Below, one piece after another: positions 3,943-7,301 of a stretch of 49,837 bases of DNA. Origin of the DNA: an uncultured Desulfosporosinus sp. GTDB lineage: Bacteria; Bacillota; Desulfitobacteriia; Desulfitobacteriales; Desulfitobacteriaceae. The translations under genes and the position numbers were made by a program. A model generated the notes under the pieces. It searched no databases and was not told the origin of the DNA. It saw nothing but the letters and a program-made list of their open reading frames with translations. Each line of letters opens with the position of its first letter. Position 1 is the stretch's first letter. The stretch covers positions 1-49,837 of the forward strand of contig CAKMJS010000055.1 in the NCBI GenBank assembly GCA_927405585.1. The letters run 5' to 3'.

Positions 3943-4710
3943 CTATTTCCTATTACGCTCATAAATTAATAAAAGTCCTTCAAGGGTCAAAAATTGATCT
4001 ACCGTTTCAATCGTGTCGGATTCTTGGGAGATCATTTCGGCTAATCCACCGGTTGCAATCACTTTAGTCTCTGGTCCCATTTCTGCTTTCATACGATTAA
4101 CAATCCCATCTACTTGCCCAATGAAGCCATAGTAGATTCCGGACTGTATTGCAGCTACAGTATTTCTAGCAATAACGGATGTAGGCTTAACCATTTCAAC
4201 GCGGGGTAACTTTGAAGCCCTCTGAAACAGTGCGTCTGTCGAGATTCCAATTCCAGGAGCAATCGCCCCGCCTAAGTATTCTCCTCGTTTTGAGACTACA
4301 CAAAACGTTGTCGCCGTTCCAGAATCTACAATGATAAGTGGTCCTCCGTATTTATTATATGCCGCGACGGCATTCACAATGCGGTCAGCCCCAACCTCCC
4401 TAGGGTTGTCAATTATTATAGGCATCCCCGTTTTAACACCTGGGCCCACAACTAGTGGTTCAACGCCAAAGTATTTTCGGGCAAGGGCTTCCAAGGTTGG
4501 GTTCACTGGAGGTACAACCGAGGAAATAACGACCGCCCCAATCTCTGGAAAGGTTAAACCGCTAAAATCAAATAAATTTTTGATAACGACCGCATATTCA
4601 TCCCTTGTCCGGGATTTATCAGTAGATACCCTCCAATGATGAGTCAGTATCCTTTCATCATATACCCCCAACACGATGTTTGTATTACCCACATCAAATA
4701 CAAGAATCAT
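3943..4710 (-). CDS. coaX: Type III pantothenate kinase
   Basis: Phosphorylates pantothenate, the first committed step of coenzyme A synthesis. The 255-residue protein has the acetate kinase/Hsp70-like fold signatures: [10 protein letters not shown] at the N-terminus (phosphate 1), [11 protein letters not shown] and [13 protein letters not shown] in the middle, and IATGGLAE near the C-terminus. CGAGGAG precedes the ATG. In related clostridia coaX follows birA directly; here bioY and an insertion sequence lie between. With panC and panD in the same region it links pantothenate synthesis to CoA. Confidence 0.96.
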
Positions 4711-5094
4711 AATAACGCTCCTCGTATAATTAATTTAGTTCCTACCCCACGAGTCCAAAAAACTAATGGAATGTGGGGTATTTAATTGACCATGGAAAAC
4801 TGGAAATTCAGTTTGTCTGGTCAATATCAACAAGATGCGCGCAGGATAACGCATACCCCATGCAGCCGTCGTGCCTGTGGGCAGTGTGGACAAGTCAACC
4901 CTAATGCATACTTCAAATTCGACTTGTCCAAAGCCTGTTGGGAAAGCTCTTTTAAGACAGACCCAAAAGGGCTTTTCCATAGGCTGGCACTGTCCACAGG
5001 CTCAGGATGAGGAATACCTGAGATTCCTCAAGTCGTTCTTTGACAACAAAAAAGTATTTAAATTTGTTGGGATTTCAGGCAAAATGGTACCGTG

Positions 5095-5320
5095 AGGTTC
5101 GTTCTGGCAAGGCCTTCCGCTCCTTGAGGCTTTGACCTCTTTTAAAGTCTGACTGCCAGCCCACAATTTGAACTTTTAACTCGAAGGTTGCACAGTTTAA
5201 AGGGAACCCCTCCGATGGTAGCAGATCGGCTGGATCCAAGGTCCTTTTAAGACAAGTGCTGATTCGGCGAGGTTGTTGACCTGTTGTGGTGCCTGGTCCC
5301 AACGTTAATCTTACTAATTC
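5095..5320 (+). ncRNA. Candidate IS110 bridge RNA
   Basis: IS110 recombinases use a structured RNA from the element's non-coding end, with two loops that pair to target and donor DNA. This 226-nt stretch directly before the transposase has suitable structure: CTGGCA (5104-5109) pairs with TGCCAG (5154-5159) around a 44-nt internal region with a GCCT/AGGC stem, and a second small stem-loop AGGT-TGTTG-ACCT is at 5270-5282. The structure was found by eye and guide loops are not assigned. Confidence 0.35.
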
Positions 5321-5349
5321 TTCAACTCGGAAAGTGAGGTGATTTTACT

Positions 5350-6591
5350 ATGAGTTTATTTGTCGGTATTGATGTGAGTTCCAATGATTTTAAAGTGCGA
5401 GTAATCGACGAGCGAGGTGATGAACCGGTTAAAAGGCTGCGGGCTTTGAATGATAAGCCTGGTTGTGAGCAAATTGCCCGATATCTCACTGAAGCCTGTG
5501 CTAAAGAGAAAGAGGATCGGCTGGTTATTGGTTTAGAAGCCACTTCCGTGTATAGTTGGCCGTTACAAATGTTCTTAGCGGAAGACCATTGCTTAGCACC
5601 TTTACAGCCCCAAATTTATTCCTTTAACCCCAAGGTGGTGGCTAATTTCAAGAAGGCTTATGTAGACCTTCCGAAGAACGACTGGATTGATGCCTGGGTC
5701 ATTGCCGAACGTTTACGCTTCGGTCGGCTCCCGGAGGGCTCTCAGATCGATTTCCGCTACTTACCGTTACAGCGCCTCACTCGCTTCCGTTGTCATCTGA
5801 TTGAGATGATCTCCAGGGAGAAGAACTATTTTCTCACGAACTTGTTCTTGAAGTTTAGCACGCTTGCCCAAGGTGCGGTTTTTAGCAACACTTTCGGCGC
5901 TACTTCTGAATCCTTGACACTTGACTTTTTTTCTCCAGAAGAGGTTGCGGCTCGACCGCTTGATGAACTAATTGATTTCCTCATGGAGAAAGGAAGAAGT
6001 CATTTCGAGGATCCGGAAGCCAAAGTCAGAGAGTTAAAGGAAGCTGCCCGCAAGGCCCATCGACTGCGTGGGAGCCTATTGCAACCCATTAACCTTATCC
6101 TGGCCACGAGCATCGAAACCATCCACACTTTAGAGAAACAGGTCAAGAAAATCGATAAGGCCATCGAAGCAGAAATCAGGCATTTTCCTAATACGCTCAT
6201 TACCATTCCCGGTATTGGCCCCGTGCTTTCAGCTGGTATTATTGCTGAGATTGGAGATATCCGTCGTTTTCCGAATGAAGGAGCCTTAGCAAAGTTTATT
6301 GGGTTAACCTGGCGTTCTCACCAGTCAGGTGATTTTACAGCCGACGACACACCCTTAACCCGAACCGGCAACACCTATTTGCGCAGTTATATCATCCAGG
6401 CTGCTAACTTAGTCCGCCAAAAGGAACCAGAGTACAAAGCCTTCTACCAACGTAAATTCTCGGAAAGTAAGACTCACCATCATCGCCGTGCTCTCGTGCT
6501 TACTGCACGCAAACTCGTCCGTATGGTTGATGCTCTGCTACGCAGCAACAAAATATACATGCCACAGGGCAATAGGGGGAATGTAAGCTAA
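5350..6591 (+). CDS. IS110 family transposase (DEDD recombinase)
   Basis: A 413-residue transposase. The N-terminal RuvC-like DEDD domain shows GIDVSSNDFKV (D9), GLEATSVYSWPL with the Glu, and the late acidic pair in PKNDWIDAWVIAERL. A helical linker follows (about 210-280). The C-terminal IS116/IS110/IS902 domain starts at TIPGIGPVLSAGIIAEIGD and contains the Ser-bearing segment WRSHQSGDF, where the family's catalytic serine is expected, then TRTGNTYLRSYIIQAA. GTGAGGTGATTTT precedes the ATG. No frameshift or stop is seen, so it may be active. It is the only clear transposase in the window. Confidence 0.93.
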   Translation: MSLFVGIDVSSNDFKVRVIDERGDEPVKRLRALNDKPGCEQIARYLTEACAKEKEDRLVIGLEATSVYSWPLQMFLAEDHCLAPLQPQIYSFNPKVVANFKKAYVDLPKNDWIDAWVIAERLRFGRLPEGSQIDFRYLPLQRLTRFRCHLIEMISREKNYFLTNLFLKFSTLAQGAVFSNTFGATSESLTLDFFSPEEVAARPLDELIDFLMEKGRSHFEDPEAKVRELKEAARKAHRLRGSLLQPINLILATSIETIHTLEKQVKKIDKAIEAEIRHFPNTLITIPGIGPVLSAGIIAEIGDIRRFPNEGALAKFIGLTWRSHQSGDFTADDTPLTRTGNTYLRSYIIQAANLVRQKEPEYKAFYQRKFSESKTHHHRRALVLTARKLVRMVDALLRSNKIYMPQGNRGNVS

Positions 6592-6761
6592 GCATAAACG
6601 CGATAATCCAACTTCCATTTTTGTAACTTATTCCCATATGATTTTGGGGATGAGAGGGTTTTTTATTGCCTTTTTTGCCCACTGATAATTAAATAACTGA
6701 AAATTTGACTCACTTAGGGTCTTGACATATTACCGAAGGACTTTTGGCTAGTGAGCTACCC

Positions 6762-7301
6762 TCAGGCGGCTTTACGGCGACGAACCACTTCCTGTCCGAC
6801 CCAGACGGCTATTCCTGCCTTAATTAGATCTCCCAAAATAAAGGGAACAAAACCGATCAAAACACTCGAGACACTAGCCTGATTGTCCAACACCCAACGC
6901 AAGATCATAAACATATAGCTTAACCCGAAGAGGTATAATGTGCCTAGACCAGCCAGGACAGCAACAATCGCCCACCACAGGCTACCTTCACGGTAAACTC
7001 GCCCAACAACGTACGCAGCGGCCACATTGCCCAGAAGAAATCCAAAGGTCGGCTTAAGGATGTAGCCTACTCCTCCAAATGGAGCGGAAGAGAAAACAGG
7101 CAATCCAAAGAGTCCTAATACCAAATACACTAACATGGCCATAGCCGCATACTCGGCGCCAAGGATAATACCTGACATAAGTACCAGAACCGGTAAAACA
7201 CTAAACGGAACTAAGCCTGGCGAAACCCAGTGAAGTAACATCCCTGCCAAACACATTAGGGCTGCCATTACGGATGTCATTGCTAGTTTTCTAGTTTTCA
7301 T
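6762..7301 (-). CDS. bioY: Biotin transporter, substrate-binding membrane subunit BioY
   Basis: S component of the energy-coupling factor biotin transporter in the cytoplasmic membrane; it binds biotin and normally works with a shared ECF module encoded elsewhere. The 179-residue protein has about six hydrophobic segments. The family pattern is visible: PFSVLPVLVLMSGIILG early, PVFSSAPFGGVGYILKPTFGFLLG in the middle, then an acidic/Lys loop GDLIKAGIAVWVG near the end. AGGAGG precedes the ATG. The BirA operator lies directly in front, so transcription should fall when biotin is plentiful. The downstream gene coaX is cut off from it by the insertion sequence. Confidence 0.95.
   Translation of the reverse strand: MKTRKLAMTSVMAALMCLAGMLLHWVSPGLVPFSVLPVLVLMSGIILGAEYAAMAMLVYLVLGLFGLPVFSSAPFGGVGYILKPTFGFLLGNVAAAYVVGRVYREGSLWWAIVAVLAGLGTLYLFGLSYMFMILRWVLDNQASVSSVLIGFVPFILGDLIKAGIAVWVGQEVVRRRKAA

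Follow-up and report, generated by a model that had tools for sequence, protein, structure and literature searches.

An IS110-group insertion sequence within the Shine-Dalgarno sequence of coaX in an uncultured Desulfosporosinus, and its probable anti-Shine-Dalgarno guide RNA

The insertion sequence and its landing site

A stretch of 49,837 nucleotides (positions 1-49,837 of contig CAKMJS010000055.1, assembly GCA_927405585.1, from an uncultured Desulfosporosinus sp.), called the window here, carries an insertion sequence (IS) of the IS110 group between bioY and coaX. The whole element (4723-6740; coordinates and features are on the + strand unless stated otherwise) lies between two CT core dinucleotides and consists of a non-coding left end (LE; 627 bp, 4723-5349), the open reading frame (ORF) of an IS110 transposase/recombinase (413 aa, 5350-6591) and a right end (RE; 149 bp, 6592-6740). 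An earlier note, made from the sequence alone, had described an IS110 element with a guide locus at this place, an observation that is confirmed, and had interpreted part of the left end as a probable bridge RNA, an interpretation that is supported by the comparisons below. What it missed is the identity of the junction into which the element is inserted: this is the coaX Shine-Dalgarno (SD) sequence, and a clade of such elements has the same kind of target. It is very probable, judging from these comparisons, that the element is RNA-guided, with an anti-SD guide, and lands in SD sequences.

The ends of the element were set by 16 copies elsewhere (approximately 92-94% DNA identity) and by the empty site in relatives. 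The alignment of the 16 copies to the window begins at CTCCTCGTATAAT and stops at TTGACATATTACCGAAGGACTT (CTCCTCG...GGACTT), and the flanks outside these limits are unrelated. A search for bioY in 29 genomes of the genus found that bioY adjoins coaX without the element in 18 relatives besides the window genome, and AAGGAG precedes the coaX start in all 18. Comparison of the filled with the empty site places the core CT (AG on the gene strand) at 4721-4722 on the left and at 6741-6742 on the right, and so locates the element inside the coaX SD sequence. The gene is on the - strand (start codon and SD together 4708-4722), its start codon reading CAT on the + strand at 4708-4710 and its SD, AGGAG, occupying 4722-4718; the left target half (ACGCTC, 4715-4720) was delimited by empty-site and copy comparison, and the right target half (TTTGGCTAGT, 6743-6752) lies shortly before the bioY stop codon (6762-6764, - strand). 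Both AGGAG and the start codon remain with coaX after insertion, the SD pointing away from the element, and a consensus scan of LE found no outward promoter for the host gene.

Two further empty sites, both for copies in genome G008, agree with the coaX site. Before a phosphofructokinase-like gene (so labelled by reading its N-terminus, with no search), the three closest of 25 relatives read ..GAAGGAGTGAT.., with the upstream sequence aligned, and the closest relative at insertion L050 has ..TAAAGGAGTG.. before the target gene. More distant relatives frequently carry different SDs at these places.

The earlier description of the transposase as intact, with DEDD residues and the serine, holds up: the ORF is uninterrupted, its product matches DEDD_Tnp_IS110 (1.8e-22) and Transposase_20 (1.2e-23) above the Pfam cut-off, and D8, E63, D111, D114 and S326, which we take to be the catalytic residues, are invariant in an alignment of seven sequences. 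Assignment to the IS110 group agrees with an upstream non-coding region longer than the downstream one and with a CT core common to target and element ends, with no longer target duplication. The IS1111 group is marked by subterminal inverted repeats of 7-17 bp and by a guide region downstream of the transposase, in a long RE; here the guide region is upstream and RE is short. D. lacus, D. nitroreducens and one IMG/VR contig, the only relative among the viral contigs searched, carry the nearest copies (93-95% protein identity), as do G008, with ten copies, and G039, where three of the four places have broken transposases. The copy of Desulfosporosinus sp. I2 (L018) has the left terminus CGAGAGGCTATATT, compared with CTCCTCGTATAATT in others, and its transposase match is truncated.

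A putative bridge RNA in the left end

The stretch from approximately 5071 to 5310 looks like a bridge RNA (bRNA) of the IS621 type, with approximate ends. Nearly all of 31 aligned elements have, by eye, one layout upstream of the transposase. It opens with an outer stem and a 5' loop strand whose last bases are (N)CTC-CT, with TG or G directly after them; a hairpin comes next, then a 3' loop strand that closes with the core-complementary AG, and finally a second stem-loop. The outer stem of the putative target loop in the window (5104-5109 pairing with 5154-5159, helix 1 of the structure tested) encloses a left target guide (LTG; TCCGCTC plus the core CT, 5116-5124) and a right target guide (RTG; TTAAAG, 5142-5147), the terminal AG of which is complementary to the core CT. 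The outer stem of the putative donor loop (5161-5166 pairing with 5284-5289, helix 3) likewise encloses a left donor guide (LDG; CGAAGG, 5182-5187), which matches the RE sequence ..ACCGAAGGA-CT, and a right donor guide (RDG; CGAG, 5268-5271), complementary to CT-CG of LE. The interval first proposed, 5095-5320, covers almost exactly the guide-RNA part of a longer non-coding left end.

The structure was evaluated on an alignment of 12 related RNAs, in which the rows G144a and G145 are without about the first 45 columns. A structure of five helices and 27 pairs has 88.8% of its cells paired, compared with 74.6% in shuffled alignments, and 16 of the 27 pairs change on both sides, compared with 9.2; 0/500 shuffles reached either value. 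All six pairs of the donor-loop outer stem show two-sided changes. RNAalifold alone gave 32 pairs, 16 of them with two-sided changes. The stem-loops that had been noticed in the 5' flank are thus above chance and covary, and the guides stand in the internal loops of two stem-loops, as in bridge RNAs. The RNAalifold consensus of 22 distant relatives is poor (-12.0), so that the structure rests on the 12 closer RNAs. No Rfam family matched the window at gathering scores, and only a chance-level snoRNA match was found in 4700-5400.

Correspondence of the guides with target and element ends

The guides were compared with their targets in a table of 58 insertions by 29 elements with readable left ends (from Desulfosporosinus, Carboxydocella and other loci), and in six plasmid elements that were chosen for diversity from 30 of 2,242 matching records. 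The left end and guide were picked by eye in three of these (L215, L218, L220), where the pattern gave two candidates. Outside the table are L093, which has lost its left end, L097, in which none was recognised, L154 (a fragment), L104 and L151 (ends off the pattern), and L010, L011, L012, L018 and L019, which were seen and not tabulated.

In the window, CGCTC-CT of the left target guide matches seven consecutive bases of the target ACGCTC-CT. Across the 29 elements, left guides match their targets at positions -1 to -6 with a mean of 4.44 matches, compared with 3.61 when shuffled (0/20,000), and inclusion of the plasmid elements raises this to 4.68 compared with 3.62 (35 elements; 0/20,000). 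The six plasmid elements, examined afterwards, match at 35/36 positions, a result reached by 6/720 permutations, and three of them have uncommon words (TTTCTC-CT, CTGCCC-CT and CTCTCC-CT) in both guide and target. Counted per insertion at positions -1 to -5, all positions match in 29/58, four in 17/58 and three or fewer in 12/58. The right target guide matches at position +1 at a rate of 0.84, compared with 0.51 (25 of the 29 elements; 2/20,000). CTCCT is found in 28/35 left target guides, and CCTCCT, the anti-SD word of 16S rRNA, in 22/35; the guide in effect appears to copy the anti-SD sequence of 16S rRNA.

The donor guides correspond to the ends of the elements in the same manner. Left donor guides match RE at 64/75 positions over 15 distinct pairs (null mean 34.9; 0/100,000), or at 69/75 once the register of G178b is set by eye; this test excludes the G422, G245, G420 and Desulfovirgula elements, which have no right end by the pattern. 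The right donor guide is CGAG in 22/22 elements with CT-CG at the start of LE and CAAG in 6/6 with CT-TG. Guides that covary with both target and donor DNA are a trait of bridge RNAs. The earlier note had predicted that, in an active element, the guide loops match the coaX-bioY junction, and had let its interpretation depend on conserved structure among relatives and on loops matching flanking DNA; the match to the junction is as predicted, and both a covarying structure and loops that match the target and the element ends were found.

Spread of the lineage and its aim at gene starts

A profile search built from seven sequences found relatives at E <= 1e-60 in 62 of the 398 genomes sampled from the phylum (a count that includes the window genome) and in 48/266 genera, so that the host, which had been called uncommon, is only partly so. 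Forty regions were taken, comprising 39 places from among the far more numerous matches of this search and one other.

The start codon of an ORF of at least 50 codons lies 6-16 nt past the core on the gene strand in 44/58 insertions, a target of start codon plus SD of the kind reported for IS900. The same test is passed by only 10.1% of 329,564 flank positions and, where the flanks contain AGGAG elsewhere, by 95/372 (26%) of these sites. With the plasmid elements included, CTC stands ahead of the CT core in 50/64 targets, and CCC or TCC in another 11. The plasmid elements are outside the start-codon count; an annotated coding sequence starts approximately 11 nt from the core in L215, L218 and L220 and in none of the other three. 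According to their taxonomy lines the plasmid hosts (Priestia, Alicyclobacillus, Enterococcus, Anoxybacillus, Cytobacillus and Bacillus) belong to the Bacillota, and Desulfosporosinus and Carboxydocella do so too. From these sequences, the aim at SDs appears to be common to the lineage, including other genera of the Bacillota.

Several further members of the lineage were noted. Loci L227, L229 and L232 have left ends of this lineage with no transposase detected in the stretch, and by eye adjoin CCTCCT and a start codon. The G358 copies (L114, L147, L148 and L149), at 41% identity the most remote of the tabulated relatives, are still at SD-like sites; the G358 guide fits poorly in the alignment used (CTCCT-CC), and its loop may need another register. 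The G207 copies (L104 and L151) belong to a relative of 45% identity, in which the repeated stretch exceeds the usual ends and the pattern finds no CT-CGTAT left end. The length of LE ranges from approximately 350 to 850 bp across the table, the longest being that of L119 (about 846 bp).

Evaluation of the evidence and of other explanations

Several observations weigh against an RNA-guided, SD-directed element. The start-codon test is failed by 14/58 insertions (L044, L017, L004 and L102 among them). The 12/58 insertions with three or fewer matches to the left guide include L017, L102, G358 copies and L143, as well as L138, L100, L144 and L009 (a one-C shift of the target). The right guide misses position +1 in 2/3 Carboxydocella copies, L138, L141, L119 and one G358 copy, and the Desulfovirgula element, with the right donor guide CAAG and CT-TA in LE, fits incompletely. 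Related elements are non-independent in the shuffles, and the permutations overstate their independence, although the result holds when the data are collapsed to 18 distinct guides (4.72 matches compared with 3.30; 0/20,000). The RNA structure was drawn from the window sequence, which favours it over the same structure slid by 1-3 columns (35-49% paired); further pair types are not above shuffles (30 compared with 30.1), and the folding energy of the bRNA stretch is no better than that of shuffles (z -0.39). Finally, a DNA search for a further copy in the window's own assembly, which would have spoken for activity of the window copy, found none.

The most serious alternative is that the bRNA specifies only the short CTCCT and that insertions elsewhere have been lost, so that the association with SDs is largely survivorship, insertion before a gene being less harmful. 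In favour of this, a start codon and an ORF come after a bare AGGAG in only 191/673 cases in the DNA examined, besides the 95/372 already given for the flanks, well short of the 44/58 insertions. The guides, however, fix more than five bases: in 88 Desulfosporosinus loci, a start codon and an ORF follow the longer word AAGGAGTG in 19/24 cases and the longer word AAGGAGCG in 18/21, counts that are inflated by the choice of many of these loci around gene starts with such SDs. Since these words are mostly at SDs, guidance by itself could account for the rate seen. Survivorship as the main cause is considered unlikely, at perhaps one chance in a few, but it could add to the SD enrichment.

A second alternative is that the target is chosen by the protein, or is simply AT-rich intergenic DNA, and that CTCCT in the RNA is there by chance. 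All of the elements belong to one protein clade and most have CTCCT, so that a common target could follow from a preference of the protein by itself. Guide and target vary together, however: CCCC-CT guides accompany CCCC-CT targets (L091, L095, L152), CTGCCC-CT and CTCTCC-CT likewise occur in both guide and target (L219, L220), and the permutation tests disfavour a target chosen by the protein. This alternative is rated as very improbable.

Proposed mechanism

RNA synthesis from a junction promoter, binding by two loops and strand exchange have been published for IS621, and by analogy the following steps are proposed for an RNA-guided element with an anti-SD guide. Excision as a circle would join RE to LE and so create a putative sigma-70 promoter across the CT core (TTGACA-17-TATAAT), its -35 box (TTGACA, 6722-6727) lying in RE and its -10 box (TATAAT, 4725-4730) in LE, with a 17-bp spacer; both boxes were recognised from the sequence alone. 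Transcription of the left end from this promoter would yield the bridge RNA. CGAAGG in its donor loop would pair with RE, and CGAG with CT-CG of LE, so that this loop holds both ends of the element; the target loop would hold an SD, and the recombinase would exchange strands at the CT core. The outcome would be an element inside an SD, with the half that belongs to the host gene (AGGAG and the start codon) intact.

Other features of the left end

Upstream of the putative bRNA, positions 4735-5060 form a series of hairpins that fold far better than shuffles (z -8.8). Within this region, a folded insert (4828-5002), recognised by folding and by matches elsewhere, is not found in Carboxydocella. 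Stretches in other genomes match it (approximately 4828-5002), and no transposase was found in the DNA examined there; the impression is of an independent palindromic repeat that the IS has acquired. No direct or inverted repeats of at least 14 bp were found within LE.

Comparison with known systems

The sources cited here were available in part, and the comparisons apply to those parts. Bridge RNAs, or seekRNAs, of IS110 elements have already been published (PMC11208160; PMC11187229), as has a promoter across the joined ends of IS110 circles (PMC11208160). The window element resembles IS621 (Durrant et al. 2024, PMC11208160) in its recombinase with DEDD and Transposase_20 domains, its long LE, its two stem-loops with internal loops, its CT core, its (here putative) sigma-70 promoter at the circle junction, the order of its target and donor guides and, by eye, a short ATA...TAT pattern around the donor. 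It differs in that repetitive extragenic palindromes are named as IS110 targets in that paper, whereas the target here is an SD, and in that the LE of IS621 is 191 bp, whereas the LE here is 627 bp and has the separate folded insert upstream of the RNA (PMC11208160). As with the seekRNAs of IS110 types (Siddiquee et al. 2024, PMC11187229), a non-coding region upstream would give rise to a target-matching RNA, but the targets in that set differ from element to element. The words 'shine' and 'ribosome binding' are absent from the text of PMC11208160 as available, and 'shine' from that of PMC11187229. No description of an SD-aimed bridge RNA was recognised in the literature searched, which was covered mostly by title and abstract, without subscription papers and preprints.

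To judge by the title of Doran et al. (1997), IS900 reportedly targets translation initiation signals. The target of IS900, an IS110-family element of Mycobacterium avium subsp. paratuberculosis, is given as CATGNNNNNNTCTCCTT (PMC8141618), in which start codon, spacer and CTC-CT-T follow in the same order as here and at nearly the same spacing; the comparison is one of targets. Since this target is reported as a translation-start signal, the target class has a precedent in IS900. The IS900 description gives no guide RNA, whereas a candidate is present here, and it includes an opposite-strand hed ORF, to which nothing comparable was seen here (PMC8141618). That translation signals are sought by the window element for the expression of such an opposite-strand protein, as the title of an IS900 paper proposes and as the shared order of target features might suggest, is most improbable: none of the minus-strand ORFs listed for the element exceeds 81 aa (4735-4980), and the SD remains part of the host gene, pointing away from the element. 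The available parts of PMC2775157, which cites Doran 1997, and of PMC7823733, on M. avium genomes, added nothing further. What is new is a probable RNA guide that would explain such targeting, together with its spread.

Implications

Two facts hitherto separate, that IS110 elements are RNA-guided and that IS900 is reported to seek translation-start signals, are joined by an anti-SD guide, and such guiding might also explain IS900. It is probable that an IS110 lineage spread across the Bacillota has settled its guide on the anti-SD sequence, that gene starts serve it as gene-sparing sites, and that the guide varies with the SD variant. An anti-SD guide would offer many similar targets per genome while sparing the downstream SD and gene. 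The naturally varied sets of guides, targets and donors from many genera would be useful for learning the guide rules, and a side question is raised in that such an RNA may touch the SDs of mRNAs. If this reading is true, RNA-guided homing to translation-start sites would be a stable strategy of these elements, comparable to that of retrotransposons homing to tRNA genes.
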